A stretch of 64,000 nt of DNA from Ancylobacter sonchi (GTDB taxonomy: Bacteria > Pseudomonadota > Alphaproteobacteria > Rhizobiales > Xanthobacteraceae): assembly GCF_018390695.1 (NCBI RefSeq), contig NZ_JAHBGF010000028.1:620001-684000 (forward strand), read 5' to 3'. Shown piece by piece: positions 18,642-34,101 of this stretch. The position numbers were made by a program, and so were the translations under genes. The notes below the pieces were generated by a model, which made no database searches, was not told the DNA's origin, and saw only the letters and a program-made list of their open reading frames with translations. Numbering within the stretch: the stretch's first letter is position 1; each line of letters opens with the position of its first letter.

Positions 18642-19334
18642 TCACCGCCATCCTCGGCGGCTGTAGAGGTAGCGCTGGAACGAGCGCAGGTCGGAGCAGC
18701 GCAGATGCCGCGCCGCCGTCGCGTCGCCGGCTTCGATCGCCATCACAAGTTCGTCCTGTATGTGCAGGGTAAAGCTCACGAAATCCGGATCATGCGGCAG
18801 GTCGACGGCGAGGCAGGAGGCGATGAACGGCGCGTAGCGCAGCCGCAGCCGCATCACCATGTCGATCAGCACCGGCGATTTCGAGCCGTGCACCAGCGCG
18901 ATGTTCCAGCCGCGGATCGCCTTCATCGTCGCGAGGTGGTCCTGCTCGGGATAGTGCACCCGCATCGTGTCGGTGTGCCCGTAGAGCGGGCGCGCCTCCT
19001 CCGGGCATTTGCGGGCGGCGAACTGCGCCGCCGCCTCGCCTTCCAGCAGCATGCGGATGGTCCAGATCTCGTCCGCCTGCTCGCGCGAGAGCTGCGGCAC
19101 GCGCACCGCCCGGCCGGGGATGACCTCCAGCGCCGAATCCGCGACCAGCTTGCTGACAGCCTCGCGGACCGGTTGCATGGAGGTATTGAGGAGGGTGGCG
19201 AGCTTGCGCAGGCTGATCCGCGTATCGGGAAGCCAGGCGCCGTCGACGATGCGGCTTTCCAGCTCCCGATAGATGTGATGCGCAAGCGTGGAACTCGACA
19301 GTCCCGGCCGGTCCACGATGCTGTCTTCGACCAT
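18642..19334 (-). CDS. GntR-family regulator, FCD subfamily
   Basis: A 230-residue regulator. The winged helix is at about residues 12-75 (SRIVDGAWLPDTRISLRKLATLLNTSMQPVREAVSKLVADSALEV) and the FCD effector domain at about 85-225 (IWTIRMLLEGEAAAQFA, with IALVHGSKSPVLIDMVMRLRLRY). The ATG at 19334 follows a strong GGGGGGAG Shine-Dalgarno, and longer readings only add an unrelated leader. It sits between the class III aminotransferase and the 3-hydroxyisobutyrate-dehydrogenase-like gene, all on the same strand. A striking tandem palindrome lies immediately upstream and is its probable operator. Confidence 0.9.
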   Translation of the reverse strand: MVEDSIVDRPGLSSSTLAHHIYRELESRIVDGAWLPDTRISLRKLATLLNTSMQPVREAVSKLVADSALEVIPGRAVRVPQLSREQADEIWTIRMLLEGEAAAQFAARKCPEEARPLYGHTDTMRVHYPEQDHLATMKAIRGWNIALVHGSKSPVLIDMVMRLRLRYAPFIASCLAVDLPHDPDFVSFTLHIQDELVMAIEAGDATAARHLRCSDLRSFQRYLYSRRGWR

Positions 19335-19347
19335 GCCACTCCCCCCA

Positions 19348-19386
19348 GATATTGCCGGCGATATTGTCTTTATCGCCGGCAATATC
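19348..19386. promoter_or_regulatory. Perfect 16-bp inverted repeat forming two palindromic half-sites 21 bp apart
   Basis: GATATTGCCGGCGATA (19348-19363), 7 bases, then its exact reverse complement (19371-19386). Each arm is itself a near-palindrome centred on GCCGGC. The two centres are 21 bp apart, two helical turns, as expected for cooperative binding of two dimers on one DNA face. It lies 14-52 bases upstream of the GntR start and 22 bases after the aminotransferase stop. Confidence 0.75.
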
Positions 19387-19408
19387 ACGGAACTCCCAGG
19401 CCACGTAG

Positions 19409-20830
19409 CTAGGCGCCGGCCTTCTCGGCGAGCTGGGCGGTGAGGCCGTCCATGGTCTTGCCGAACAGGTCGATGGCCTCGTCGCACTCCGCCTTGGTGA
19501 TGCAGAGCGCCGGCGAGAACGACACCACCTCGATGAAGGGCAGCGCGCGGATCATCAGCCCGCTCTCCTGCGCCTTGCCCGCAACCAGACGGTGCACGGC
19601 GTCGGTGGCCTGGAACGGACGGCGGGTGGCGCGGTCGGCGCTGAACTCGACGCCGATCATCAGCCCCTCGCCGCGCACCTCGCCGACGAAGGGGTGCTCC
19701 GCCAGGCGCTCGCGCAGGCCGGCGAGCAGATAGGCGCCGGTATCGGCGGCGTTGCCGATCAGCCCCTCACCTTCCATGATGTCGAGATTGGCCATGGCGA
19801 TGGCGGCGCCGACCGGATGGCCGGAATAGGTGAAGCCGTGCATCACCGGGCCGTATTCCGCCGAGCCGGCCTCGAACACCTTCCACATGCGCTCGGAGAT
19901 CACCGAGGCCGACATCGGGAAATAGGCGCTGGTCAGCCCCTTCGCGAGCGTCACGATGTCCGGCTTCAGCTTGTAGAGGCCGGTGGCGAACCACTCGCCG
20001 GTGCGGCCGAAGCCGGTGATGACCTCGTCGGCGATCAAGAGGATGTCGTGGCGGTCGAGCACCGCCTGCACCCGCTCGAAATAGCCGGCCGGCGGAATGA
20101 GCACGCCGCCGGTGCCCATGATCGGCTCGGCGATGAAGGCGCCGATGGTGTCCGCGCCCTCGCGGGCGATCAGCGCCTCGAGATCGGCGATCAGCCGGTC
20201 GCAGAAGGCGGCCTCGCTCTCGCCCGGCGCGGCGAAGCGGTAGTAATGCGGGCACTCGGTGTAGACCACCTCGCCTTCCGGCAGGCTCCACGCCTTGTGG
20301 TAGGACGGGATGCCGGTGAGCTTGGCCGCCGCCATGGTCAGCCCGTGATAGGCGCCCATGCGGGAGATGACCTTCTTCTTCTCCGGGGTGCCGCGCAGAT
20401 TGGCGTAGTAGCGGACCAGCTTGAAATTGGTGTCGTTGGCGTCCGAACCGGAGGTGCCATAGAACACCCGCGCCAGATGGTCGGCGCCGGCATGGTCGTG
20501 GAACAGGCCGAGGATGCGGTCCGACAGGCGGATGGTCGCCTCGTTGGAGGCCGAGCCGAACAGGTGCCAGTAATTGAGGTCGAGGATCGCCTTCTTCGCC
20601 GCCTCGGCGATCTCCGGCCGGCCATAGCCGATGTTCACGCACCACAGGCCGCCGGAACAGTCGAGGATCGGCTTGCCCTTGTGGTCGGTCAGGCGCACGC
20701 CCTTGGCGCTGCCCATGATCTGCGGGCCGCTCGCCATGTGCTGGGCGATCGAGGTCAGGGGATGGAACAGGCTGTTGCGGTCCATCTCCTCGAGCGAATA
20801 ATTGCTGTCGGACGTATCGAGATCGAGCAT
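19409..20830 (-). CDS. Class III (omega) aminotransferase
   Basis: A 473-residue PLP-dependent transaminase. Seen in order: the substrate-side [15 protein letters not shown], the PLP phosphate cup [19 protein letters not shown], the Tyr/His pair in [14 protein letters not shown], the Asp in [15 protein letters not shown], the Schiff-base Lys in [14 protein letters not shown] and a conserved Thr in [10 protein letters not shown]. Family members move amino groups from beta-alanine, putrescine, GABA or amines to pyruvate or other keto acids. The start at 20830 has GGAAAG upstream. It is located 111 bases after the Pot-type permease and 74 bases before the GntR gene, so the likely job is first-step catabolism of an imported amine or omega-amino acid. 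Confidence 0.9.
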
Positions 20831-20910
20831 GTCAGGGACTTTCCGAGACGGCGGGAGGGAACCGGCGGAGACCGCCGGCACAGGAAGGCGTTGAGGGGGA
20901 AGCCGGGTCC

Positions 20911-20961
20911 GTTCTTGTCGAGCTTCAGTTCTTGTCGAGCTTCAGTTCTTGTCGAGCTTCA
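20911..20961 (-). repeat. 17-bp tandem repeat, three copies, spanning the stop of the PotC-type permease
   Basis: Three exact copies of a 17-bp unit (plus-strand reading GTTCTTGTCGAGCTTCA) at 20911-20927, 20928-20944 and 20945-20961. On the minus strand the unit encodes the last residues KLDKN and supplies the TGA stop. Two copies lie downstream of the stop, so the stop-codon region has been duplicated. Confidence 0.9.
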
Positions 20962-21799
20962 CGAACAGCACCCAGAAGAACGCGCCCATCACCGGCAGCG
21001 TCACCGCCAGCAGGATGGTGGTGAGCGAGAAGATGATCGGCACCTGCGATTGCTGCGACGCCGCCATGGCCCAGTTGTAGATCGGCATGGTGGTCTCGAT
21101 GCCGCGCACGAACAGCGAGCGCGGCAATTCGTTGAACGACAGCAGGAAGCCGAAAATCCCGGCGCCGAGGATGCCCGGACGCAGGATCGGCATCTCGATG
21201 TCCCAGAAGCGCCGCCAGGGCGAGGCGCCGAGATCCTCCGCCGCGTCGAGCAGGCGCAGGTCGAAGCGGCTGGCCACCACCAGCACCAGAAGGATGCAGA
21301 ACGGCAGCGCCCAGACCAGCTGGGCGAGGAAGATCGACCACATGCCCAGCGTCAGATTGAGCATGGTGCGCAGGAAGATGAACAGCGCCGCCCCCATGGT
21401 GAGGCCGGGCACGAAGAGCGGCATCAGCACCAGCAGCAGCGAGGCGCCCGGCCGCGCCATGCGGGTCAACGCCCGGCCGACCAGTGTCGACAGCGCCATG
21501 CAGACCACCGCCACGCCGGCGCTCATCAACAGGCTGGTGTAGAGCGGCGGCCGCCAGCGGGCATCGGCGAACAGGGTGGCGTAGTTCTGGAAGGTCAGCG
21601 GATAGGGAATGCCGGCCAGCGGATTGGCGGTGAAGGACATCACCGCCAGCCACACCAGCGGGATGTAGATCATGACGATGGCGAAGACGCCGGCGCCCTT
21701 GGCGAGCGTCGTCCAGCGCGGCGAAGTACTGAGCCGGCGACGGGCGGAAGGCGCGGCGACGGCGCGGCGGGAATAGGTTTCCATGGCGGTGGCGGACAT
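20942..21799 (-). CDS. ABC transporter permease, PotC type
   Basis: A 285-residue permease with six hydrophobic segments and the cytoplasmic EAA loop DAAEDLGASPWRRFWDIEMPILRPGILG, as in spermidine/putrescine and related importers. The ATG at 21799 follows GGGAGG with proper spacing and lies 11 bases after the stop of the PotB-type gene. The last codons and stop are part of a threefold 17-bp repeat, so the C-terminal tail (VKLDKN) is exposed to repeat-copy changes. It pairs with the PotB-type permease to form the channel. Confidence 0.9.
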   Translation of the reverse strand: MSATAMETYSRRAVAAPSARRRLSTSPRWTTLAKGAGVFAIVMIYIPLVWLAVMSFTANPLAGIPYPLTFQNYATLFADARWRPPLYTSLLMSAGVAVVCMALSTLVGRALTRMARPGASLLLVLMPLFVPGLTMGAALFIFLRTMLNLTLGMWSIFLAQLVWALPFCILLVLVVASRFDLRLLDAAEDLGASPWRRFWDIEMPILRPGILGAGIFGFLLSFNELPRSLFVRGIETTMPIYNWAMAASQQSQVPIIFSLTTILLAVTLPVMGAFFWVLFVKLDKN

Positions 21800-21810
21800 A
21801 TCGGCCTCCC

Positions 21811-22758
21811 TCAGCGGCGCATGGCGACGAACATGGCGGCAAGATCGATCCGCCGGTGGACGACGCGGATCAGCGCCACGAGACACAGGCCGAGCAGCAG
21901 CACGACCAGCGTCGAGAGCGCCGCCGCCGTCGGGTATTTCAGCTGCTGCAGCGCCGAATTGACCGAATTGCCGAGCAGGTCGACGAAGCCGCCGCCGAGC
22001 AGTTGCGGTTCGACGAAGGCGGCCATCAGCGGCACCAGAGTGAAGACGATTCCGGCGACGATGCCGGGCAGCGCCAGCGGCAGGATGACGTTGAACAGGG
22101 TCTGCGCCGGGCTGGCGCCGAGATCGCCGCTGGCCTGGATGAACTCGTCGTCGATCAGCGCGATCGACATGAAGATCGGGAACACCATCGGCGGGAAATA
22201 GGTGCCGAGCAGGCCGAAATGCACGGCGAACTCGGAATAGAGCAGCCATTCCACCGGCTGGTCGACCAGCCCGAGCGACATCAGCGCGGTGTTGATGGCG
22301 CCGGTGGTGCCGAGGATCGAGCGCCAGACGATGATGCGCGAGGCAGCGTCGAGGAAGAAGGGGATCGTCAGCAGGGTGATGACCGCCGCCTTGACCGTCT
22401 TCGAGCGGCAGCCCTTGGCGAGCCACAGCGCGAAGGGAAAAGCGAGCAGGAACTCGATCACCGTCATGGTGAGCGCGACGCGCAGCGTGCGCACCACCGC
22501 CATCCAGCGGCCGGAATCGATCAGCGAGATCCAGGTCGCCAGCGTCGGCTCGTAGACGACACGGAACTGGCGCACCTGAAGGAAGCTGAACAGCACGATC
22601 ACCACCAGCGGCACGATCACCAGAAGCGACCAGAACAGCAGGAAGCCCGGCACCATCAGCCGCGACGGCGACAGCCCGTCGAGCACGCGTTTCATGAGCG
22701 ACCGGCGTGTGCCGGTATCCTGTGGGCCGGCGTCTTGATGATCGAGGATCGCGGTCAT
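21811..22758 (-). CDS. ABC transporter permease, PotB type
   Basis: A 315-residue permease. It has a hydrophilic N-terminus of about 30 residues, six membrane segments and a large periplasmic loop between the first two, plus the EAA loop QASGDLGASPAQTLFNVILPLALPGIVAGI. It belongs to the polyamine/opine/2-aminoethylphosphonate importer class (PotB). It is downstream of the solute-binding protein gene after a 190-base gap full of hairpins, and is followed directly by the PotC-type gene. Confidence 0.9.
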   Translation of the reverse strand: MTAILDHQDAGPQDTGTRRSLMKRVLDGLSPSRLMVPGFLLFWSLLVIVPLVVIVLFSFLQVRQFRVVYEPTLATWISLIDSGRWMAVVRTLRVALTMTVIEFLLAFPFALWLAKGCRSKTVKAAVITLLTIPFFLDAASRIIVWRSILGTTGAINTALMSLGLVDQPVEWLLYSEFAVHFGLLGTYFPPMVFPIFMSIALIDDEFIQASGDLGASPAQTLFNVILPLALPGIVAGIVFTLVPLMAAFVEPQLLGGGFVDLLGNSVNSALQQLKYPTAAALSTLVVLLLGLCLVALIRVVHRRIDLAAMFVAMRR

Positions 22759-22948: not shown

Positions 22949-24154
22949 TCAGGCGTTGAGGAAGCGCTGCCACTCCTCTTCCATCACCGCAGCGTTCTCC
23001 GGTACGACCTTGCAATAGAAGGGCTTCTGGAACTTGCGCTTCACCTTCTCATCGGTCCATTTCAGGTTGTCGATATCGGCCTGCGACCAGCCATGGTCGA
23101 TGGCGTACTGCACGCCGAGATCCATGTTGGGGCCGGCATAGCCGCGCTCCTTGGCCTGGTAGGCGCGGTACTCGCCGCCGAGGAAGTAGTTGAGCAGCTT
23201 GTAGATGTTGGCGACGTTGTCGCGCTGCATGGCGGCGGTGGCGACGTTGGCGCCGTGGCCCCAGAGATAGTAGCCCTCGACGGTGAAGGCGTAGATGGTG
23301 GCGTTCGGCCCCAGCGCGTTGTTGGCTTCCTTGGTGGCCGGCTCCCAACAGTTGATCATGTCGACCTCCTTGTTGGAGAGCAGCTGCACCTGCTCCTCGA
23401 AGGCCGAGAAGATGGTGCGGAAATGCCCGGCCTTCTTGCGCTCGACCAGATAGTCGGCGACCACGCGCGCCTTGTCGGCCGGCAGGTCGGCCGGATCCTC
23501 GACGTCGAGCCGGCCGTGATGCTTGAGGAAATTCGCCGTCTCCGACATCGATTGCAGCCAGCTGCGGTCGATGGCGACGCGGCCCTTGACCTTCTCGCCC
23601 TCGAAGAAGGTGGTCCAGGGGATCTCGTCCATGCCGTTCGGATTGGCGTCGATCGCCGCGGCGAAGTAGCCGAAGCAGTCGCCATTGCCGATCACCGGCA
23701 CGCCATACTGCTTGTCGTTGGCGCGCAGATAGGCGGCGCGCTTCCACGCATCCGGGGTGCGCTCCCACAGCGTCAGCTCGGGATTTTTCTCGTCGATCTC
23801 GGCAAAGAAGCCCTCGGGACCGAGGATGTCCTCCGAACCGCCGTCGAAGATGAAGATGTCGTGGGTCTGCCCGAGATTGTTGCCCATGACGTCGCGCATG
23901 AACACGCCGATATCGGCGTTGGTCGGCGTGTAGTCGATGGAGAGGCCGGTGGACTTGGTCATGATCGACCAGTCTTTGAGCTGGGCGGTGGTGACGCCGT
24001 AGCCCTTGACCGTCTGGCCGGCAGCCCAGGCCTCCTGCGAGATGCCCGGCATCACCGAGGCGGCGGCGCCGAGCGCCGACATGGAAAGCACGGTACTGAG
24101 GAAGTCGCGACGTGACATGTCGAAGTCGGATTTAGCGATCTTGCCGTCTGTCAT
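22949..24154 (-). CDS. ABC transporter substrate-binding protein, PotD/PotF-like, Tat signal
   Basis: A 401-residue extracytoplasmic solute-binding protein (family 1/PotD-like). The N-terminus has a twin-arginine motif (MSRRDFLSTVLSMSALGAA) with cleavage near the AWA-AGQ boundary, so it is probably exported folded. Conserved patches include NADIGVFMRDVMG, DIFIFDGGSEDILGPEG and a late DHGWSQADIDNLKW. It belongs to the transporter at 20942-25342. It might bind polyamines, opines, iron or an aromatic amine, and the neighbouring aminotransferase favours an amine or amino acid. It is separated from potA by 63 bases. Confidence 0.88.
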   Translation of the reverse strand: MTDGKIAKSDFDMSRRDFLSTVLSMSALGAAASVMPGISQEAWAAGQTVKGYGVTTAQLKDWSIMTKSTGLSIDYTPTNADIGVFMRDVMGNNLGQTHDIFIFDGGSEDILGPEGFFAEIDEKNPELTLWERTPDAWKRAAYLRANDKQYGVPVIGNGDCFGYFAAAIDANPNGMDEIPWTTFFEGEKVKGRVAIDRSWLQSMSETANFLKHHGRLDVEDPADLPADKARVVADYLVERKKAGHFRTIFSAFEEQVQLLSNKEVDMINCWEPATKEANNALGPNATIYAFTVEGYYLWGHGANVATAAMQRDNVANIYKLLNYFLGGEYRAYQAKERGYAGPNMDLGVQYAIDHGWSQADIDNLKWTDEKVKRKFQKPFYCKVVPENAAVMEEEWQRFLNA

Positions 24155-24217: not shown

Positions 24218-25342
24218 TCAGGCGTTCATCACTATGCAGTCGCCCTTCTTCCATCGGACGAAGGACGGGTGCCGGGCCGACGAGGCCGCATCCCAGATGC
24301 GGGCCTTGAGCGGACCGAGCGCGGTCTTGACCGTTCGGTCGAGATACTTACCCTTGTAGATCGAGGCCTCGGCCACGCAGTCGAGCACGTTATGCTCCCC
24401 CGAGGCGTCGGGCGGCGCGTCGCTGAGTTGCAGCCATTCGGCGCGCATGCCGACCGCCACCTTGGCGCCCGGCTGCGGGGCGGACTTGCCGGTCCAGCGC
24501 CCGTCGATGCGGCGCTCGCCCACCGCGACGCTGGCCCAGCCATCGGACACCGCGACGAGTTCGCCCTCGAAGCAGTTGTCGACGCCCATGAATTTGGCGG
24601 CGAAGCTGCTGATCGGGCTGTCGAAGATCTCCGCCGGCGGGCCGGCCTGCTCGATCTTGCCCTTGCGCATCAGGATGATGCGGTCGCTCATGGTGAGCGC
24701 CTCTTCCTGGCTGTGGGTGATGTAGATGAAGGTCATGCCGAGCTGCTTATGCAGCTGCATCAGCTCCACCTGCATGTCGACGCGCAGCTTCTCGTCCAGC
24801 GCGCCCAGCGGCTCGTCGAGCAGGAGGATCGCCGGGCGCGGCACCAAAGCGCGGGCGAGCGCCACGCGCTGGCGCTGGCCGCCGGACAGCTGGTGGACCT
24901 TGCGGTCGTACATCTCCTGAAGCTGCACCAGGCGCAGCGCCTCGCGGGCGCGGGCCTCGCGATCCTTCGGCGGCACGCCACGCACCTTGAGGCCGTATTC
25001 GACATTGGCGCCGACCGTCATGTGCGGGAACAGCGCGTAGTTCTGGAACACGGTGGTGCAGTTGCGCTGGAAGGCCGGCACCTCGCGCACGTCGACGCCT
25101 TCGAGCTTCAGCGTGCCGACGCGATAGGGCTTCTCCAGCCCGGAGATCAGCCGCAGCAGCGTCGTCTTGCCCGAGCCGCTCTCGCCGAGAATGGTGAGGA
25201 ACTCGCCGGGCGCCGCCGAGACGCTGACATTGTCGAGGGCGACGACGCCGTCATAGGCGTGGACGGCGTTGACGATCTCCAGAATGGGCGGTGCCGACCG
25301 GGCGGCGGCAGGGGCATCTGCGAATGTCGTCGAGCTGGACAA
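24218..25342 (-). CDS. ABC transporter ATP-binding protein, PotA type
   Basis: About 374 residues. The ATPase domain has Walker A GESGSGKT, the Q-loop VFQNYALFPHM, the signature LSGGQRQRVALARAL, Walker B ILLLDEPLGALD and the H-loop ITHSQEEALTMSD. A C-terminal TOBE-type regulatory domain (residues about 270-374) follows. The start is TTG at 25342, chosen because GGAGGT lies 8 bases upstream. A GTG 15 codons earlier overlaps the TGTGATCACA palindrome and lacks a ribosome site. It is first of the potA-D-B-C run, followed by the aminotransferase, GntR and 3-hydroxyisobutyrate-dehydrogenase-like genes on the same strand. The C-terminal WKKGDCIVMNA is an ordinary end. Confidence 0.9.
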   Translation of the reverse strand: MSSSTTFADAPAAARSAPPILEIVNAVHAYDGVVALDNVSVSAAPGEFLTILGESGSGKTTLLRLISGLEKPYRVGTLKLEGVDVREVPAFQRNCTTVFQNYALFPHMTVGANVEYGLKVRGVPPKDREARAREALRLVQLQEMYDRKVHQLSGGQRQRVALARALVPRPAILLLDEPLGALDEKLRVDMQVELMQLHKQLGMTFIYITHSQEEALTMSDRIILMRKGKIEQAGPPAEIFDSPISSFAAKFMGVDNCFEGELVAVSDGWASVAVGERRIDGRWTGKSAPQPGAKVAVGMRAEWLQLSDAPPDASGEHNVLDCVAEASIYKGKYLDRTVKTALGPLKARIWDAASSARHPSFVRWKKGDCIVMNA

Positions 25343-25378
25343 GGAACCGGACCTCCAGACAGCGTGGGCCTCGCAATC

Positions 25379-25388
25379 TGTGATCACA
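25379..25388. promoter_or_regulatory. TGTGATCACA palindrome upstream of potA (candidate operator)
   Basis: A perfect 10-bp palindrome 37 bases upstream of the chosen potA start. The same core, in a longer perfect palindrome, lies upstream of hyuA at 27323-27338, which suggests one regulator for both units. The rest of the 25343-25658 gap also holds a strong hairpin described separately. Confidence 0.55.
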
Positions 25389-25658: not shown

Positions 25659-27224
25659 CTATTTCGAGATCGACACATCGACGGCAAGAAAGGTCGCGGC
25701 GAAGGACACCGCCGCGCGCAGGGCGCCCGCCAGGATGCGTGCCGGCTCCGGCGCGGTATCGCCCGGGACGAGCGCGCGCGCCTCGACGTCAAAGGCCGGA
25801 TCTTCCGCGGAACTCTCCAGCATGCGGGCGATGGAGGCGCCCTCAAGCCCGGCATTGCCGGCAATCGCCGCCAAGGGCTGCGACAGCGCTGCGGCGAAGA
25901 CGGCGCCGACGGCCCGCCCCGCCTCGCCCGCCGGCAACGCCGCCCGGCCGCGTCGTCCGGCATGAATGAGCGCAGCCGCGCCTCCGGGCACGACGCCGCC
26001 CGCCGCGCTCGCCCGCAACGCCGCAGTGGCGGAGCGGGCGCGCGCCTCGCGGAAGGCGATCTCGGTCTCCGTGGCGCCGCCGATCCGCAGACGGGCAATG
26101 GCGGCGCCGAACCGCGCCAGGCGAGCCTGATGCTGTTCCCGGTCGAAGGCGAGATAGCGCTCCTTGCGGACCTGCTGGCGGATCGCCTCGCAGCGCGCGG
26201 AAATGGCGTCTTCGCTGCCCTTGCCACCGACGAGGTGAGTGGCCTGGCGGGTCATGCGCACCGCCTCCGCCCGCCCCAGCATGGCAGGCCGCAGGCCATC
26301 CAGCGTGGTGCCGAGCGCGGCGCCGATGACGGTCGCGCCGGTCGCCACCGCGATGTCCTCCAGTTGCAGTGCCCGCCACGTCCCGGCGCCGGGCGCCTTC
26401 ATCGGCGCAACCTTGAGGCCGTTCTGCCGATTGGCGATCAGCGTCGCCATCGCCTCGCCGTCGAAGCTGTCGGCGACGATCAGCAATGGCTTGCCGGATT
26501 GCGCGATCATTTCGAGGATCCGCGCCACCGAGGCGAAGCTGTCGATCGGCCCCTGATGCAGCAGGATCAACGGATTGGCGAGCTCGATGCGCTGGCTCTC
26601 GGCATCGGTGAGAAAATGCGGCGACAGCCAGCCCTGCGGGAAGCTCATGCCGGCCTCGACGCTCAACTCGTCGCCGACGCCATGCCCGGCCTCGATGGTG
26701 ACGACCCCCTCCGCGCCTGCCCGCGCATGTGCCTGCGCGACCAGATGGCCGATGTCGCGATCGCCGCCTGCCGCGCGGGCGGCGATGGCATCGAGAAGAG
26801 CGGGATCCGTGACCGGGCGCGCGGCCGCTTCGATCTCGCCGGCGACGACGGCACCATGGGCGAGCAGGGTCTCGCGCAGGGCGGGAACTGAAATTCCCGT
26901 TTGCAGCTGGCGAGTTGCGCCCCGCAGCAGCGCGCGGGCGAGGATGAGGGCGCGGGCCGTGCCATCGCCCGCCTGCGCGTCGACATCCGCCGCCAGCTGG
27001 CGCATGGCGACCGCGCCGGCCCGCAGTCCCGGCTGGTCGAATTCGACCTCCTTCGCAATGGCATAGCCGCCGCGCAGCAGGGCTGGGCGGGTATGAAGCC
27101 GCGACGACAGAACCGCCCGGCCGGCGGGGCCGATATTGGTCGCCACCACATCGGCCACAAGGTCGATGCCCTGCATCAGCGGCCGCTTCGCCCCGGCATC
27201 GAAACGCACTGTCGCTGCATTCAC
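25659..27224 (-). CDS. Divergent GroEL-like chaperonin lacking both catalytic aspartates
   Basis: A 521-residue Hsp60/GroEL paralogue that aligns without gaps to E. coli GroEL over at least the first 90 residues. Residue numbers still agree at the GGATETE-ARARSATAAL segment near 398. Conserved: GPxGR (32-36), AGDGT (85-89, Mg-binding Asp87 kept), the EGVVTIEAG and DELSVEAGMSFPQGWLSPHF apical patches, KPLLIVADSFDGEAMATL and VVPGG. Changed: Thr30 to Asn, Lys51 to Arg, Asp52 to Gly, Thr90 to Ala, Thr91 to Arg and Asp398 to Ser. In GroEL, Asp52 and Asp398 drive ATP hydrolysis. The Gly-Gly-Met tail is missing, as the protein ends AVDVSISK. The GTG start (27224) has AAGGAG six bases upstream. There is no groES alongside. 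It is divergent from hyuA, so a dedicated scaffold or assembly role for the HyuAB proteins is a reasonable guess. Confidence 0.9.
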   Translation of the reverse strand: MNAATVRFDAGAKRPLMQGIDLVADVVATNIGPAGRAVLSSRLHTRPALLRGGYAIAKEVEFDQPGLRAGAVAMRQLAADVDAQAGDGTARALILARALLRGATRQLQTGISVPALRETLLAHGAVVAGEIEAAARPVTDPALLDAIAARAAGGDRDIGHLVAQAHARAGAEGVVTIEAGHGVGDELSVEAGMSFPQGWLSPHFLTDAESQRIELANPLILLHQGPIDSFASVARILEMIAQSGKPLLIVADSFDGEAMATLIANRQNGLKVAPMKAPGAGTWRALQLEDIAVATGATVIGAALGTTLDGLRPAMLGRAEAVRMTRQATHLVGGKGSEDAISARCEAIRQQVRKERYLAFDREQHQARLARFGAAIARLRIGGATETEIAFREARARSATAALRASAAGGVVPGGAAALIHAGRRGRAALPAGEAGRAVGAVFAAALSQPLAAIAGNAGLEGASIARMLESSAEDPAFDVEARALVPGDTAPEPARILAGALRAAVSFAATFLAVDVSISK

Positions 27225-27322: not shown

Positions 27323-27338
27323 AACTGTGATCACAGTT
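27323..27338. promoter_or_regulatory. Perfect 16-bp palindrome between chaperonin-like gene and hyuA
   Basis: AACTGTGATCACAGTT reads identically on both strands. It lies 58 bases upstream of the hyuA start and 99 bases upstream of the divergent chaperonin start, so it could control both. Its TGTGATCACA core is shared with the site upstream of potA. The form fits a homodimeric repressor such as a GntR protein. The regulator is not identified. Confidence 0.7.
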
Positions 27339-27395: not shown

Positions 27396-29453
27396 ATGCG
27401 TCTGGCGTGTGATACAGGAGGTACCTTCACGGACCTCGTCGTGGAGAACGGTGAGGAAATCCGGCTGTTCAAGGCGTCGACGACGCCGGACGATCCGGTG
27501 CGCGGCGTCCTCAACGCCCTGACGCTGGCCGCCGAGCACTTCGGCGAGGACCGCACGGACTTCCTCGCCCGCGCCGACATGTTCATCCACGGCACCACCC
27601 GCGCGATCAACGCCATCCTGACCGGCAACACCGCGCGCACCGCCTTCCTCACCACCGAGGGCCATCCCGACGTGCTGGTGATCCGCGAGGGCGGGCGCAT
27701 CGAGCCGTTCAACTTCACCGTTCCCTATCCCGAGCCCTATGTGCCGCGCCGGCTCACCTTCGAGATCCCCGAGCGCATCGAGGCCACCGGCAACGTCCGC
27801 ACGCCGCTGGACGAGGCGGCCGCGCTCAAGGTGATCGAGAAGCTGAAGACGCTGAAAGTGGAGGCGGTGGCCGTCTGCTTCCTGTGGTCGATCGTGAATG
27901 CCGAACATGAGAAGCGGATGGGCGAGCTGCTCGCCGAGCACCTGCCGGGCGTGCCCTTCACGCTGTCGCACGCGCTCAACCCGACGCTGCGCGAATATCG
28001 CCGGGCGTCGGCGACCGCCATCGACGCCTCGCTGAAGCCGCTGATGTTCGACTATCTCGACAGCCTGACGCGACGTCTGCGCGAGGCGGGCTTTGCCGGC
28101 CGCACGCTGATGGTGACCTCCGGCGGCGGCATCATGGACGCCGAGGCGGTGGCGCGCGCGCCGATCCACTCGATCAATTCCGGCCCGGCCATGGCACCGA
28201 TCGCCGGCCGCTTCTACACCGACCGCGACTTCGATCATGCCGAGGCCATCGTCGCCGATACCGGCGGCACCACCTACGACGTCAGCCTGGTGCGCGACGG
28301 CCGCATTCCGTGGACCCGCGAGACCTGGATCGGCCAGCGCTTCCGCGGCCACATGACCGGCTTCCCCTCCGTCGACGTGAAGAGCATCGGCGCCGGCGGC
28401 GGCTCGATCGCCTGGGTCGACGATGGCGGGCTGCTGCGGGTCGGCCCGCAGAGCGCCGGCTCCACCCCCGGCCCGGTGGCCTATGGCAAGGGCGGCACCG
28501 AGCCGACCGTCACCGACTGCTCGATCATCCTCGGCTATATCGACCCCGACTTCTTCCTCGGCGGCACCATGGTGCTCGACCGCGAGGCGGCCCGGAAGGT
28601 GCTGAAAGAAAAGATCGCCGACCGGCTCGGCCTCAGCGTCGAGGAAGCCGCCGCCTCGGTGCTGACGCTGGCGACCGAGAAGATGGTCGGCGCCATCGAC
28701 GAGATCACCATCAACCAGGGCATCGACCCCTCCAACGCCGTGCTGATCGGCGGTGGCGGCGCGGCGGGGCTGAACGCGGTGGCGGTGGGGCGGCGGCTCG
28801 GCTGCGCCGGGGTGCTGATCCCCGAAGCCGGCTCGGTGCTGTCGGCGGCCGGGGCGCTGATGTCGGACATCTCCTCCGACTACGCCCAGATGCACTACAC
28901 CACCAGCCGGCGCTTCGCCTATGATCAGGTGAACGCCGTGCTCGCCGAGCTGGAGGCGCGCTGCAAGGCGTTCGCCGAAGGCCCCGGCGCCGGGGCGCTG
29001 AAGGTGACGACCGAGTTTTCGGTCGAGGCGCGCTACATGCACCAGATCTGGGAGATCGAGGTGCCGATGGGCCTCAGCCGCGTCAAGGACGAGGCCGACC
29101 TCGAGGCGCTGAAGGAGGCGTTCCACGCCACCCACAAGATGATCTTCGAGATCACCGACCCGGATTCCGACATCGAGTTCGTGACCTGGCGCGCCAAGGT
29201 GGCCTGCAAGATCCGCGAGGGCGGCACCGGACGGCTGCCGGCGCAGGAGGTGGCGGCGCAGATCGACAAGCGGCCGATCTATTTCACCCAGACCGGCTGG
29301 ACCAACGCCCAGGTGGTGCGCTTCGAGAGCATGCCGCCGAACGCGCCCGTCACCGGCCCCGCCATCATCGAATCCTCCTTCACCACCGTCGTCGTCGACC
29401 CCGGTACGCATGCGCTGCGCACCGATGGCGGCGGCCTGAAGATCACCTTCTAA
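27396..29453 (+). CDS. Hydantoinase/oxoprolinase A (HyuA) family subunit
   Basis: A 685-residue ATP-binding subunit of the hydantoinase/oxoprolinase/acetone-carboxylase superfamily. The actin-like (ASKHA) phosphate loops are visible: CDTGGTFTDLVV at residues 5-16, ADTGGTTYDVSLV near residue 288, then SIGAGGGSIAWVD and LIGGGGAAGLNA. In this family HyuA phosphorylates a carbonyl or amide oxygen while HyuB performs hydrolysis or carboxylation. Relatives act on hydantoins, 5-oxoproline, acetone and acetophenone. The ATG at 27396 follows GAGG by 9 bases, while ATG 27381 would add five residues. It is first of a plus-strand operon with two HyuB genes, and the HyuB start lies 11 bases after its stop. 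Sequence alone does not give the substrate. Confidence 0.9.
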   Translation: MRLACDTGGTFTDLVVENGEEIRLFKASTTPDDPVRGVLNALTLAAEHFGEDRTDFLARADMFIHGTTRAINAILTGNTARTAFLTTEGHPDVLVIREGGRIEPFNFTVPYPEPYVPRRLTFEIPERIEATGNVRTPLDEAAALKVIEKLKTLKVEAVAVCFLWSIVNAEHEKRMGELLAEHLPGVPFTLSHALNPTLREYRRASATAIDASLKPLMFDYLDSLTRRLREAGFAGRTLMVTSGGGIMDAEAVARAPIHSINSGPAMAPIAGRFYTDRDFDHAEAIVADTGGTTYDVSLVRDGRIPWTRETWIGQRFRGHMTGFPSVDVKSIGAGGGSIAWVDDGGLLRVGPQSAGSTPGPVAYGKGGTEPTVTDCSIILGYIDPDFFLGGTMVLDREAARKVLKEKIADRLGLSVEEAAASVLTLATEKMVGAIDEITINQGIDPSNAVLIGGGGAAGLNAVAVGRRLGCAGVLIPEAGSVLSAAGALMSDISSDYAQMHYTTSRRFAYDQVNAVLAELEARCKAFAEGPGAGALKVTTEFSVEARYMHQIWEIEVPMGLSRVKDEADLEALKEAFHATHKMIFEITDPDSDIEFVTWRAKVACKIREGGTGRLPAQEVAAQIDKRPIYFTQTGWTNAQVVRFESMPPNAPVTGPAIIESSFTTVVVDPGTHALRTDGGGLKITF

Positions 29454-29464
29454 GGGGCAGCCGG

Positions 29465-31270
29465 ATGAACGTGAACGTCAGCATCCGCCGCACCGACGGC
29501 GTGAAGACGGCGATCCTCGCCAGCCGCTTCGAGAGCATCGCCCGCAAGATGCAGAACACCCTGTTCCGGACCGCCCGCTCGGGCATCCTGAACACCGCGC
29601 ACGACTTCTCCTGCGTGATCCTCACCGCCGATTGCCGCCTGCTGGCGGCGGCGGAGAGCCTGCCCAGCCACACGCTGACCGGGCCGGACATCATGTGCCG
29701 CTACGTGATGAAGTATCATCCGAAGCTGCGCCGGGGCGACTGCTTCCTGCACAACAGCCCCTATGAGGGCAACTCGCACGCCGCCGACCATTGCCTGATC
29801 GTGCCGGTGATCGACGAGGACGGCATCCTGCGCTTCTTCGTGCTCGCCAAGGCGCACCAGGCCGATTGCGGCAATTCCCGGCCCTCGACCTATCTCGGCG
29901 ACGTCGCCGACGTGTTCGAGGAAGGCGCGCTAATCTTCTCGGCGGCGAAGATCCAGTCCGACTACCAGGACAATGAGGACCTGATCCGCATGTGCCGCGC
30001 CCGCATCCGCGTGCCGGAACAGTGGTGGGGCGACTACCTCGCCACGCTGGGCTCGGTGCGCATCGGCGAGCGCGAGATACTGGAACTCGGCAAGAGCTTC
30101 GGCTGGGACGAGCTGGAGGACTATGCCGAAAGCTGGTTCGACTATTCCGAACGCAAGATGGCTGACGCCATCTGCAAGCTGCCCTCCGGCAAGCGGCTGG
30201 TAACGACCGCCCACGACCCCTTCCCCGGCATTCCCGACGGCATCCCGGTGAAGGCGGCGGTGGAGATCGACAGCGAGGCCGGCATGATCCGCGTCGACCT
30301 CACCGACAACCCGGACTGCCAGCCCTGCGGCCTCAACCTCACCGAGGGTACCTCGATGAGCGCCGCCATGGTGGCGATCTTCAACAGCCTGATCGACCAC
30401 ACCGTGCCGGTGAACGCCGGCAGCTTCCGCCGGCTGGACATCCGCATCCGCAAGAATTGCTGCGTCGGCATCCCGCAGCATCCGGCCTCCTGCTCGGTGG
30501 CGACCACCAATCTCGCCGACCGCGTCGCCAACCCGGTGCAGCGCGCGCTTGCCGAGATCGCGCCGGGCTACGGCATGGCCGAGACCGGGCCGATCATGCC
30601 GCCCGGCATGGGCGTCATCTCCGGGCGCGACCCGCGCCACGACAACGAGCCCTTCGTCAACCAGGTGCATATCGGCGTGACCGGCGGCGCCGGCACCCCG
30701 GTGACCGACGGCTTCCTGTCGATCATCCATGTCGGCAATGCCGGCATGTGCCATCTCGACTGCATCGAGGTGGACGAGCTGCACCACCCGGTGTTCATCG
30801 CCGGCCGCCGGCTGGTGCCCGATACCGAGGGTGCCGGTACCTTCCGCGGCGCGCCGTCCATGCTGGCCGAGTTCGGCCCGATCGACGACTGCGCGATGAA
30901 GGTGCTCTACACCGCCGACGGCACCATCACCCCGGCACTCGGCACGCGCGGCGGCGGCGCCGGCGGCAAGACCAAGGCCCGCAAGCGCGGGCTGGATGGC
31001 AGCCTCACCGAACTGCCGGCCTGCTACGGCGCCGAACTCAATGCGGGTGAGATGATCGTCTCCTACTCCTCCGGCGGCGGCGGCTACGGCTCGCCGCTGG
31101 AGCGCGATCCCGCCCGCGTGCTGCACGATCTGCGCGAGGGCTGGATCACCGCCGCCCGCGCCGACGCGGTCTATGGCCTCGTCACCACCGGCCGCGCCGA
31201 GGACGACACGCTGGCCGTCGACGTCGCCGCCACCACGGCCCGCCGGGCCGCGCTGGCCTCCGTCGCGTGA
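29465..31270 (+). CDS. Hydantoinase B (HyuB) family subunit, first copy
   Basis: A 601-residue HyuB/AcxB-like catalytic subunit. Recognisable segments are SGILNTAHDFSCVILTADCRLLAAAESLP, the metal-site region NSPYEGNSHAADHCLIVPV, the AKAHQADCGNSRP segment (family AHxxDxG), AGSFRRLDIRIR and the Gly-rich end SSGGGGYGSPLERDP. It follows hyuA by 11 bases and precedes a paralogue by 14 bases. The two HyuB copies differ mainly in the first 15 residues and in scattered substitutions and are otherwise alike along the whole length. With HyuA it probably forms an ATP-dependent hydrolase or carboxylase complex of unknown substrate. Confidence 0.9.
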   Translation: MNVNVSIRRTDGVKTAILASRFESIARKMQNTLFRTARSGILNTAHDFSCVILTADCRLLAAAESLPSHTLTGPDIMCRYVMKYHPKLRRGDCFLHNSPYEGNSHAADHCLIVPVIDEDGILRFFVLAKAHQADCGNSRPSTYLGDVADVFEEGALIFSAAKIQSDYQDNEDLIRMCRARIRVPEQWWGDYLATLGSVRIGEREILELGKSFGWDELEDYAESWFDYSERKMADAICKLPSGKRLVTTAHDPFPGIPDGIPVKAAVEIDSEAGMIRVDLTDNPDCQPCGLNLTEGTSMSAAMVAIFNSLIDHTVPVNAGSFRRLDIRIRKNCCVGIPQHPASCSVATTNLADRVANPVQRALAEIAPGYGMAETGPIMPPGMGVISGRDPRHDNEPFVNQVHIGVTGGAGTPVTDGFLSIIHVGNAGMCHLDCIEVDELHHPVFIAGRRLVPDTEGAGTFRGAPSMLAEFGPIDDCAMKVLYTADGTITPALGTRGGGAGGKTKARKRGLDGSLTELPACYGAELNAGEMIVSYSSGGGGYGSPLERDPARVLHDLREGWITAARADAVYGLVTTGRAEDDTLAVDVAATTARRAALASVA

Positions 31271-31284
31271 AGGGAGAGGGTACC

Positions 31285-33081
31285 ATGTCGATCATCACCA
31301 AGACGCTCGAGGCGCCCGCCACCGGCGTGCGCATGGCAATCATCTCCAACCGCATGGAGGGCATCGCCCGCAAGATGCAGAACACGCTGTTCCGCACCGC
31401 GCGTTCGGGCGTGCTGAACACCGCGCACGACTTCTCCTGCGTGATCCTCACCGCCGACTGCCAGCTGCTGGCCACGGCGGAAAGCCTGCCGATCCACACG
31501 CTGATCGGCCCCGACCTGATGTGCCAATACGTCAAAAAGTACCACCCGGCGCTGAAGGCCGGCGACTGCTACCTGCACAACAGCCCCTATGAGGGCGACT
31601 CGCACGCGGCCGACCACTGCCTGATCGTCCCGGTGGTGGACGAGCAGGGCATCACCCGCTTCTTCGTGCTCGCCAAGGCGCACCAGGCCGATTGCGGCAA
31701 CTCGCAGCCGACCACCTATATGGGCGGCGCCCGCGACGTGTTCGAGGAAGGCGCGCTGATCTTCTCCGCCGCCAAGATCCAGTCCGGCTACGAGGACAAC
31801 CAGGACCTGATCCGCATGTGCCGCTCGCGCATCCGCGTGCCCGAGCAGTGGTGGGGCGACTACCTCGCCACGCTCGGCGCGGTGCGCATCGGCGAGCGCG
31901 AATTGCTGGCGCTCGGCAAGGAGATCGGCTGGGCGGCGCTGGAGGACTATGCCGAGGCGTGGTTCCAGTATTCCGAGGACAAGATGGTGCAGGCCATCTC
32001 CCGGCTGCCCTCCGGCAAGGTGACGGTGCAGTCCGGCCACGACCCGTTCCCCGGCGTGCCCAATGGCATCCCGGTCAACGTCACGGTGGAAGTGGACGCG
32101 GCGGCGGGGCGCATCACCGTCGACCTCACCGACAACATCGACTGCCAGCCCTCGGGCCTCAACCTGTCGGAAGGCTGCGCGCGCACGGCGGCGATGATCG
32201 GCATCTATAACGGGCTGATCGACCACAGCGTGCCGCCCAATGCCGGCAGCTTCCGCCGCGTCGACATCAGGCTGCGCGAGAACTGCGTCGTCGGCATACC
32301 CAGCCACCCGCATTCCTGCTCGGTGGCGACCACCAACCTCGCCGACCGCGTCTCGACGCCGGTGCAGCGGGCGATCGCCGAGATCGCGCCCGGCTTCGGC
32401 ATGGCGGAGACGGGGCCGATCATGCCGCCGGCCATGGGGGTGATCTCCGGCAAGGACCCGCGCAGCGGCGAATCCTTCGTCAACCAGATCTTCCTCGGCG
32501 TCACCGGCGGGGCGGGCACGCCGGTGACGGACGGCTTCCTCACCATCATCCATTGCGGCAATGCCGGCCTGTGCCGGCAGGACAGCGTCGAGGTGGACGA
32601 GCTACACCATCCGCTCTTCGTCACCGATCGCCGGCTGCTGGCCGATACCGAGGGGGCCGGCACCCAGCGCGGCGCTCCCTCGATGCGGGCCGAGTTCGGC
32701 CCCATCGAGGGCTGCACCATGAAGGTGATCTACACCGCCGACGGCACGATCAACCCGGCGGTCGGCGCGCTGGGCGGCGGGCCCGGCGGGCTGTCGGACG
32801 CCTTCAAGCGCGAACTGGACGGCAGCCTCACCCGGCTGCCGGGCTGCTACGGCGTCGAGCTGAAGCCGGGGGAGACCGTCGTCTCGGTCTCGGCCGGCGG
32901 CGGCGGCTATGGCGAACCCATGCAGCGCAAGGCGGAAAGCGTGCTCGCCGACGTCCGCGAAGGCTGGATCTCGCCGGAACGCGCCCGCGAGGTCTACGGC
33001 CTCGCGGTAAGCGGCGCGGCCGAGGACGACACGCTCGCCATCGACGCCGCCGCCACCGCGACGCTGCGCGCCGGCGCCTGA
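31285..33081 (+). CDS. Hydantoinase B (HyuB) family subunit, second copy
   Basis: A 598-residue paralogue of the preceding gene, matching it segment by segment (ARKMQNTLFRTARSG, HNSPYEGDSHAADHCLIVPV, AKAHQADCGNSQP, VRIGERE, NLADRV, VTGGAGTPVTDGFL). It retains the same His/Asp candidates, so neither copy is obviously dead. The ATG at 31285 has GGGAGAGGG upstream; an earlier in-frame GTG at 31267 overlaps the hyuB1 stop. Differences such as KDPRSGESFVNQIF against RDPRHDNEPFVNQVH and the tail GALGGGPGGLSDAFK suggest divergence after an old duplication, possibly to make a heteromeric complex. Confidence 0.9.
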   Translation: MSIITKTLEAPATGVRMAIISNRMEGIARKMQNTLFRTARSGVLNTAHDFSCVILTADCQLLATAESLPIHTLIGPDLMCQYVKKYHPALKAGDCYLHNSPYEGDSHAADHCLIVPVVDEQGITRFFVLAKAHQADCGNSQPTTYMGGARDVFEEGALIFSAAKIQSGYEDNQDLIRMCRSRIRVPEQWWGDYLATLGAVRIGERELLALGKEIGWAALEDYAEAWFQYSEDKMVQAISRLPSGKVTVQSGHDPFPGVPNGIPVNVTVEVDAAAGRITVDLTDNIDCQPSGLNLSEGCARTAAMIGIYNGLIDHSVPPNAGSFRRVDIRLRENCVVGIPSHPHSCSVATTNLADRVSTPVQRAIAEIAPGFGMAETGPIMPPAMGVISGKDPRSGESFVNQIFLGVTGGAGTPVTDGFLTIIHCGNAGLCRQDSVEVDELHHPLFVTDRRLLADTEGAGTQRGAPSMRAEFGPIEGCTMKVIYTADGTINPAVGALGGGPGGLSDAFKRELDGSLTRLPGCYGVELKPGETVVSVSAGGGGYGEPMQRKAESVLADVREGWISPERAREVYGLAVSGAAEDDTLAIDAAATATLRAGA

Positions 33082-33159: not shown

Positions 33160-34101
33160 ATGAACGAGATGGAGACCAACCGCTTCGCCGCCGGCGCCGC
33201 CTATGTCGACGGCGCCTTCAAGCCGATGGCCGAGGCCGTCGTTCCGGTGAACGATTTCGGCTATCGCCGCTCGGACGTCACCTATGACGTCGTCGGCGTG
33301 TGGGAAGGCAATTTCTTCCGGCTCGACGACCACATCGCCCGCTTCCGCAACTCGATGAACGCGCTGCGGCTGAACCCGGCGGAGAGCGACGACGAGATCA
33401 AGGAGATCCTGCACAGGCTGGTCAGCCTCACCGGCCTGCGCTCGGCCTATGTGGCGATGGACTGCCTGCGCGGCGTGCCGATGCCCGGCAAGCTGCGCCA
33501 CCCCGCCAATGCGCGCAACTATCTCGTCGCCTATGCGGTGCCGTGGATCTCCATCGTCACCGACGAGCAGTATGAGCGCGGCGTGCACATGATCATCGCC
33601 CAGACGCTGCGCATCCCGCCGGCGTCATTCGACCCCCGGGTGAAGAACTTCCACTGGGGCGATCTCACCGCCGGCCTGTTCGAGGCGCTGGACCAGGGCG
33701 CCGACACCGCCGTGCTGCTCGACACCGACGGCAACGTCACCGAGGGGCCGGGCTTCAACGTGTTCTCCATCACCGACGGCGTGGTGGCGACGCCGATCCG
33801 TGGCGGGCTCGACGGCATGACCCGCCAGTCGGTGTTCGAGATGTGCGAGGAGCTCGGCATTCCCTGCGTCGCCCGTGCGGTGCCGGCGGACGAACTGCGG
33901 CAGGCCGACGAGATCTTCACCTGCACCACCGCCGGCGGCATCATGCCGGTGTCGCGCATCGACGGCCGCATCATGGGCAATGACCGGCCGGGCGTCATCT
34001 CGTCGAAGCTGAAGGACCTGTTCTGGGCCAAGCGCGCCGAGGGCTGGCACGCCACGCCAGTGAAGTACGAGGCCGCCGTGGCGGAGCCGGCGGAGGCCTG
34101 A
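33160..34101 (+). CDS. Class IV aminotransferase (BCAT/D-amino acid transaminase fold)
   Basis: A 313-residue fold-type IV PLP enzyme. PLP-site features are the substrate-side Tyr region DFGYRRSDVTYDVVGVWEG, RVKNFHWGDL carrying the Schiff-base Lys, VLLDTDGNVTEGPGFNVF with the conserved Glu, and CTTAGGIMPV near residue 250 for phosphate binding. Members include branched-chain aminotransferases, D-alanine aminotransferases, 4-amino-4-deoxychorismate lyases and (R)-amine transaminases. Active-site detail is insufficient to choose among these. It begins 78 bases after hyuB2 and is probably the last gene of that operon. ATG 33169 is an alternative start. It is a second, unrelated transaminase in the same locus as the class III enzyme. 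Confidence 0.88.
   Translation: MNEMETNRFAAGAAYVDGAFKPMAEAVVPVNDFGYRRSDVTYDVVGVWEGNFFRLDDHIARFRNSMNALRLNPAESDDEIKEILHRLVSLTGLRSAYVAMDCLRGVPMPGKLRHPANARNYLVAYAVPWISIVTDEQYERGVHMIIAQTLRIPPASFDPRVKNFHWGDLTAGLFEALDQGADTAVLLDTDGNVTEGPGFNVFSITDGVVATPIRGGLDGMTRQSVFEMCEELGIPCVARAVPADELRQADEIFTCTTAGGIMPVSRIDGRIMGNDRPGVISSKLKDLFWAKRAEGWHATPVKYEAAVAEPAEA

Follow-up and report, generated by a model that had tools for sequence, protein, structure and literature searches.

The window, by which we mean the whole 64,000-nucleotide stretch of Ancylobacter sonchi DNA analysed here, encodes a Cpn60-family chaperonin that is group I by fold and family, minus the catalytic pair of aspartates that defines this group. 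As its sequence suggests, and with a probability that we put at about 0.55, this protein is defective in ATP hydrolysis, probably still binds nucleotide, and serves a product of the import/lactam operon. The genes and sites concerned are the following, with residues numbered as in E. coli GroEL:

18642–19487, minus strand: GntR/FCD regulator, a candidate binder of the palindromes
19409–20881, minus strand: class III aminotransferase
20942–21811, minus strand: ABC permease, PotC-like
21811–22758, minus strand: ABC permease, PotB-like
22949–24154, minus strand: solute-binding protein with a twin-arginine signal sequence, the anchor of the linkage searches
24218–25387, minus strand: ABC importer ATPase, PotA-like by annotation
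25379–25388, no strand: palindrome core TGTGATCACA, second copy, located between the chaperonin and ABC-ATPase genes
25659–27224, minus strand: Cpn60-family chaperonin, 521 aa with a GTG start (from the translation)
27071–27069, 26966–26964 and 26033–26031, minus strand: chaperonin codons for Gly52, Asp87 and Ser398, respectively, read on the DNA
27323–27338, no strand: 16-base palindrome AACTGTGATCACAGTT, a likely operator between the chaperonin and HyuA genes, which are divergent
27396–29453, plus strand: HyuA, nearest to the caprolactamase alpha subunit CapA (571.9 bits, cut-off 1000)
29465–31270, plus strand: first HyuB copy, CapB-like
31267–33081, plus strand: second HyuB copy, CapB-like
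33160–34101, plus strand: class IV aminotransferase

The listed start of the ABC ATPase gene overlaps the second palindrome, so its true start probably lies further in. A single HyuA is accompanied by a tandem HyuB pair (29465–33081), whose members are about 73–74% alike by cross-match in the Ancylobacter loci and score 228.4 and 224.1 against the CapB model, below its cut-off of 1000. Elsewhere in the window, a radical SAM protein with a DUF4070 domain is encoded on the minus strand (57898–59574).

ATP site and predicted fold of the window chaperonin

The window chaperonin matches the Pfam family PF00118 (Cpn60_TCP1) over residues 23–517 with 120.9 bits (cut-off 34.3). It lies above the PRK12849 GroEL subfamily cut-off (388 vs 352) and below that of the TIGR02348 GroEL equivalog (363.6 bits vs 582.1), and its identity to GroEL is 32–34% (32% for E. 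coli GroEL). The structure prediction that the earlier note had recommended gave an AlphaFold2 model with a pLDDT of 82.1 and a pTM of 0.74 from a 39-row alignment; this alignment combined the window protein with four orthologues, of which one is incomplete, and with 34 GroELs from viral contigs, and being mostly GroEL it steers the model towards the GroEL fold, an alignment of only four rows giving a pLDDT of 37.8. Foldseek aligned the model with GroEL chains across about 520 columns at TM-scores of up to 0.89, the best of which belonged to ATP-state GroEL (4aaq, 8bl2), a ranking that, for a monomer model, is uninformative on the state in the cell. By this prediction, the window chaperonin has the GroEL fold along its whole chain.

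It had been claimed in the earlier note that both ATP-hydrolysis aspartates of this protein are replaced. A MAFFT alignment with E. coli GroEL (NC_000913), from which all site numbers are taken, bears this out: Asp52 is Gly and Asp398 is Ser, with no gap near either site. No acidic residue was found at positions 50–56 or 394–401 of the window chaperonin, and Glu393 lies just outside. The other changes that had been listed, Thr30 to Asn, Thr90 to Ala and Thr91 to Arg, appeared in the same alignment, and we take Thr30 and Thr91 to have roles at the nucleotide site. Lys51 to Arg is present as well, yet it has no diagnostic value, as it occurs in this genome's own MimG-type chaperonin and in Asp52-keeping relatives too. 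As described, the magnesium ligand Asp87, the GPxGR loop (here GPAGR) and part of the apical patch (Trp199, Phe204 and Leu237) are retained, together with the DGT and GG loops, while the Gly-Gly-Met tail is missing. The reported absence of groES holds for the locus and not for the genome, which carries two groES genes, each adjoining another groEL.

The aspartates Asp52, Asp87 and Asp398 were invariant in 29 of 29 generic GroELs of the reference alignment, a non-random sample picked from the best-scoring matches, and were also kept in all 80 GroELs from viral contigs. The genome itself (5.8 Mb) has three other Cpn60 genes, two adjoining groES and one of the MimG type, and the three proteins that they encode keep all three aspartates. 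The residue changes of the window chaperonin are beyond chance, and the earlier observation is confirmed.

In GroEL, the water credited with attack on the gamma-phosphate sits between Asp52 and Asp398 (excerpt of PMC10723157), and the gamma-phosphate is contacted by Asp52, Gly53, Thr89, Thr90 and Asp398, with Asp87 as the magnesium contact (excerpt of PMC8440773). GroEL D398A has about 2% of the ATPase activity and shows slowed apical movement and client release (excerpt of PMC3813556), and the D52A/D398A double mutant stabilises the symmetric GroES complex (excerpt of PMC5941174, where the second residue is printed as 358). By analogy with these mutants, ATP splitting by the window protein would be nearly absent.

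Relatives, importer linkage and order of aspartate loss

Gly52 and Ser398 recur in both other Ancylobacter species in which the gene was found (Ancylobacter sp. Lp-2, 93% identity; A. defluvii, 77% identity), and positions 90–91 across the three proteins read Ala-Arg, Ala-Arg and Ser-Leu. The gene was present in 3 of 30 genomes of the genus, that of A. sonchi included, and therefore belongs to the accessory genome. Scanning genome contigs for exact peptide patterns yielded four loci, two from Ancylobacter and two from Geminicoccus (chaperonin 45–46%), of which one Geminicoccus locus starts inside the chaperonin gene. The four loci are collinear. HyuA, two HyuB genes and the class IV aminotransferase gene occupy one side; the opposite side holds the genes for the chaperonin, the ABC ATPase, the binding protein, both permeases, the class III aminotransferase and the GntR regulator.

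With the binding protein as anchor, 385 class, 149 family, 397 order and 398 phylum genomes (overlapping sets) as well as plasmids were searched, the class, order and phylum searches taking the best four or fewer candidates per genome, and the fetched flanks were scanned with a Cpn60 profile built in this analysis. A binding protein about 54% identical or more (53.8–100%) was found at 13 loci including the window, and Cpn60 was present at 12 of the 12 that could be judged. It lies directly before the ABC ATPase gene in 11 of these 12 (in G372 as a piece at the contig end), and in G797 an aminotransferase gene separates the two. The thirteenth importer locus, that of G437, starts at a contig end; in this genome the family chaperonin adjoins HyuA/HyuB on another contig. 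In contrast, among the loci fetched for a binding protein of 42% identity or lower, none of 27 had a Cpn60; weaker matches were fetched in part, and these importers come from another branch of the binding-protein family.

Overall, diverged relatives of the chaperonin accompany this set of ABC-importer genes in seven or more additional lineages, one of them in another class. For G1138, which belongs to the same phylum and another class, a Cpn60 at the importer locus was foretold before the scan and then found. We propose an importer-linked chaperonin family recognised by a Cpn60 gene beside the series ABC ATPase, solute-binding protein, permease, permease, and the window gene has this arrangement. 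Searches with the chaperonin itself were less productive. A four-row profile run against the 385 class genomes (best three or fewer candidates per genome) gave no further close member among the scored candidates, and diverged relatives blend with ordinary GroELs by profile score, the G437 protein ranking third with 449 bits. Likewise, plasmid tblastn with the Geminicoccus protein gave only GroELs of less than 40% identity among the best 15 matches listed.

The gene content around the family chaperonins varies. On a plasmid of Shinella sp. PSBB067 (L096:11401-23804), the shortest family chaperonin (482 aa) stands with the same importer, and PxpB/PxpC-like, biotin carboxylase, APH-type kinase and class III aminotransferase genes replace HyuA/HyuB. 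The G437 contig (L075:3746-14791) carries the chaperonin with HyuA/HyuB, class IV aminotransferase, TauD, PhyH and FAD-oxidase genes, the importer being on the other contig. HyuA/HyuB of the G067 locus are only distantly similar (32% and 27%), and near the G268 chaperonin HyuB was found and HyuA was not. Tat export was also considered as a cause of the linkage and rejected, as twin arginines occur in many chaperonin-less binding proteins too and do not discriminate. They were seen in 10 of 10 chaperonin-side binding proteins (window, L019–L022, L068–L070, L096 and L118), a count that leaves out L144, L145 and L244 and includes L096 and L118, which the motif missed.

The palindrome provides a further connection among these genes. 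Its core, TGTGATCACA, occurs at two places only in the 64 kb window, namely the chaperonin–HyuA and chaperonin–ABC gaps, and the nine-base pattern gave 4 strand matches in the window vs 0.40 expected, a number that none of 100 shuffles reached. In Lp-2, A. defluvii and G. harenae both gaps contain the core, G. harenae having additional copies, and at the G754 locus one copy is complete and another partial; the core was not found in six of the further family loci scanned (L118, L096, L069, L145, L083 and L075). Because the core is common to the chaperonin, HyuA and importer gaps, the chaperonin probably shares its regulation with HyuA and the importer in the Ancylobacter–Geminicoccus–G754 branch, and the GntR/FCD regulator would be the natural candidate to bind the palindromes. 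The suggestion that the chaperonin is a dedicated one is thus supported by both gene linkage and the shared palindrome.

The catalytic residues differ among relatives. Both Asp52 and Asp398 are kept in G268, G372 and G437, and Asp52 alone in Geminicoccus (Ala398) and G797 (Arg398); neither remains in Ancylobacter (Gly52/Ser398), G754 (Gly/Arg), Shinella (Thr/Arg), G067 (Ser/Ala) and G1138 (Thr/Ala). Asp87 is kept in every family member examined. In a 27-row tree rooted on generic GroELs, from which columns 29–37, 48–55, 84–93 and 394–401 had been removed, all nine proteins without Asp398 group together as a single clade (97/95; recovered in 96% of 200 bootstrap trees), so that one change is needed for Asp398 and two for Asp52, the latter within this clade. 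Earlier trees without G1138 were concordant (99/95 with all columns; 92/87 minus the catalytic columns); several branches are very long and the letter make-up is uneven, which leaves fine placement uncertain. Read from this tree, the order of loss is Asp398 once, then Asp52 twice, and Asp87 never. The impaired hydrolysis put forward in the earlier note is well supported by these patterns, with the GPxG and DGT motifs staying alongside Asp87.

One could still suppose that the protein cycles slowly, with other residues hydrolysing ATP and the GroES of the genome being used. This would suit the Asp52 kept in Geminicoccus and G797, the residual activity of GroEL D398A and the apical Trp199, Phe204 and Leu237 of the window protein; however, both residues flanking the attacking water are gone from the latter and the stretches around them hold no acidic substitute, and we regard slow cycling as highly improbable.

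Constraint on the chaperonin gene

The chaperonin gene has a dN/dS of 0.16 when compared with Ancylobacter sp. Lp-2 and of 0.23 when compared with A. defluvii, and the frames are open in all three Ancylobacter genes; against Geminicoccus it is 0.53, with dS near 1. Its dN (0.039 for Lp-2 and 0.144 for A. defluvii) is far above that of HyuA (0.003 and 0.007) and exceeds that of the housekeeping GroELs against A. defluvii (0.018 and 0.009). Its dS, calculated over 25662–27224, is 0.24 and 0.61 vs at most 0.13 and 0.28 in the other cluster genes (Lp-2 and A. defluvii, respectively), about twice that of the nearest cluster neighbours or more against both relatives. We left out the AT3 comparison with A. 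defluvii (L020), whose dN of 2.5 at 91% protein identity is meaningless and probably comes from a frame slip. GC3 is 0.84 vs 0.90–0.94. The higher dS and lower GC3 are compatible with lower expression, weaker codon bias being one possible reason for the higher dS. These results indicate purifying selection on a gene that nonetheless evolves faster than any other in its cluster.

Such rapid change raises the question of whether constraint on the gene has been relaxed, making it a decaying GroEL copy with no separate function. The highest dN in the cluster (77% protein identity to A. defluvii where HyuA has 98.8%), the lower GC3 and the retention of only 100 of 198 GroEL invariants would agree with this. 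On the contrary, the low dN/dS and open frames argue against a pseudogene, the gene occurs at every judgeable locus of its importer subtype, including one in another class, and distant members keep the same pocket residues at about 25–30% mutual identity, all of which makes decay very unlikely. Moreover, since related genes adjoin the same transporter genes in distantly related bacteria, the aspartate loss looks selected, not accidental.

The pattern of retained residues bears on whether nucleotide is still bound. The 29 generic GroELs share 198 invariant positions. All nine Asp398-less proteins preserve 28 of these, and the other 170 are changed in at least one of the nine; the 28 include G32, P33, G35, G53, D87, G88, T89, G414 and G415. 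Among eight members, 8 of 18 invariants that we take to belong to the nucleotide site are kept vs 21 of 180 others (Fisher p 0.0013), an enrichment that partly reflects conserved glycines. In the same eight, residues that are presumably those of the GroEL allosteric salt bridges are lost: Asp83 in 7 of 8, Arg197 in 8 of 8 and Glu386 in 4 of 8. If nucleotide binding had been lost too, the protein would be an ATP-independent holdase or adaptor, with the pocket glycines and Asp87 kept only for folding. The variation at Thr30, Lys51, Thr90 and Thr91 and the missing allosteric residues point in this direction; against it, Asp87, Thr89 and both glycine loops persist in 9 of 9 Asp398-less members while most generic invariants do not, and we consider it rather unlikely.

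Another explanation is that the protein works only as a regulatory or structural subunit in mixed rings with housekeeping GroEL, slowing or retargeting them. Mixed plant Cpn60 rings are a precedent for subunits of this sort, the predicted fold matches GroEL, and the two full GroEL/GroES pairs of the genome could provide partners that supply hydrolysis. Nevertheless, the protein has only 32–34% identity to GroEL and changes faster than the housekeeping GroELs, and gene linkage does not require mixed rings, so that this explanation appears unlikely.

Possible mechanism, client and comparison with known systems

A more far-reaching reading, which we consider clearly less likely than not, is a natural non-cycling Cpn60 clade that would have lost hydrolysis and kept nucleotide binding, its members acting as ATP-clamped, one-way holders or assembly scaffolds for an importer component. 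In the preferred explanation, given at the outset, a chaperonin without the water-holding residues would take up ATP and remain in the ATP-bound state; in this state it would capture or cap its client, with very slow release and no cycling. By analogy with the GroEL mutants, the client or lid would be held far longer than by GroEL. This analogy is weakened by the changes at Thr30, Thr90 and Thr91, the lost allosteric residues and the eroded apical patch in some relatives. Arg91 might block nucleotide in the window chaperonin, and GroEL-style GroES or client binding may be gone, given how poor the apical patch of Shinella, G067 and G797 is.

The client of the window chaperonin is most likely an importer product (the binding protein, the ABC ATPase or the permeases) rather than HyuA/HyuB, because importer genes are present at every judgeable locus and HyuA/HyuB also occur without the chaperonin; a choice among the importer proteins would carry low confidence. 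HyuA/HyuB were rejected as the obligatory client, as they occur with a related importer without the chaperonin (e.g. L114, L119, L147–L152, L154 and L155), are replaced by other genes at the Shinella locus, and are represented near the G268 chaperonin by a HyuB, with no HyuA found. The best match of the operon HyuA/HyuB is CapA/CapB of Pseudomonas jessenii (PMC8453981), though below curated cut-offs. CapAB was produced in E. coli according to this source, and its sole "chaperon" passage concerns an Hsp70 structure.

Several known chaperonins invite comparison. The E. coli GroEL mutants D398A and D52A/D398A share with the window chaperonin the fold, Asp87, the GPxGR, DGT and GG loops and the alteration of the same two residues. 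In contrast, the state of the window chaperonin is natural and common to three species, at 32% identity and without a GGM tail or an operon groES, with further changes at Thr30, Thr90, Thr91 and the allosteric residues.

The MimG-type chaperonins, proposed earlier for comparison, proved different. MimG is, we assume, the chaperonin of the same kind of diiron monooxygenase operon that contains MmoG. The latter resembles the window chaperonin as a Cpn60 within a catabolic operon without groES (excerpt of PMC9324122). Unlike the window chaperonin, the MimG-type protein of the genome keeps Asp52, Asp87 and Asp398, and it branches outside the family node (99/97, with a single MimG-type sequence). 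For these reasons a MimG-type identity was rejected; no soluble diiron monooxygenase is found among the annotated neighbours of the window chaperonin. The MimG-type gene itself stands last in a diiron monooxygenase cluster on another contig of the genome (L078:7780-16012), after two Phenol_Hydrox genes and genes for a reductase, an amidohydrolase and an FeS-assembly protein.

The chlamydial GroEL2 and GroEL3 are, from the excerpts of PMC1892554 and PMC5904260, also diverged group I paralogues with ATP-site and GroES-binding differences and without a co-chaperonin gene of their own; the window chaperonin scores 84.6 and 135.8 bits against the NCBIfam exception models for these proteins, far below their cut-offs of 600, and by this measure is not a chlamydial variant. 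BBS6, BBS10 and BBS12 are likewise chaperonin homologues, with a differing ATP-hydrolysis motif in BBS6 and BBS12 (excerpt of PMC5534436). The same excerpt describes them as CCT-type (group II) proteins from humans that do not assemble into oligomers as canonical CCT does; likened to them by description only, the window chaperonin is analogous and no more. In a narrow search of the open-access literature, we met no description of a chaperonin gene adjoining those of a hydantoinase and an importer, and none of a bacterial chaperonin that naturally lacks Asp52 and Asp398.

GroEL D398A and D52A/D398A are laboratory tools for freezing the chaperonin cycle, and the clade described here reached the same state naturally. 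As the order of loss can be read from the tree, and relatives with one or both aspartates exist, the family offers a test of which chaperonin functions need hydrolysis and which need binding alone. The possible clients form a short list, all in one operon, and the importer binding protein is a simple genomic marker for finding more such chaperonins.
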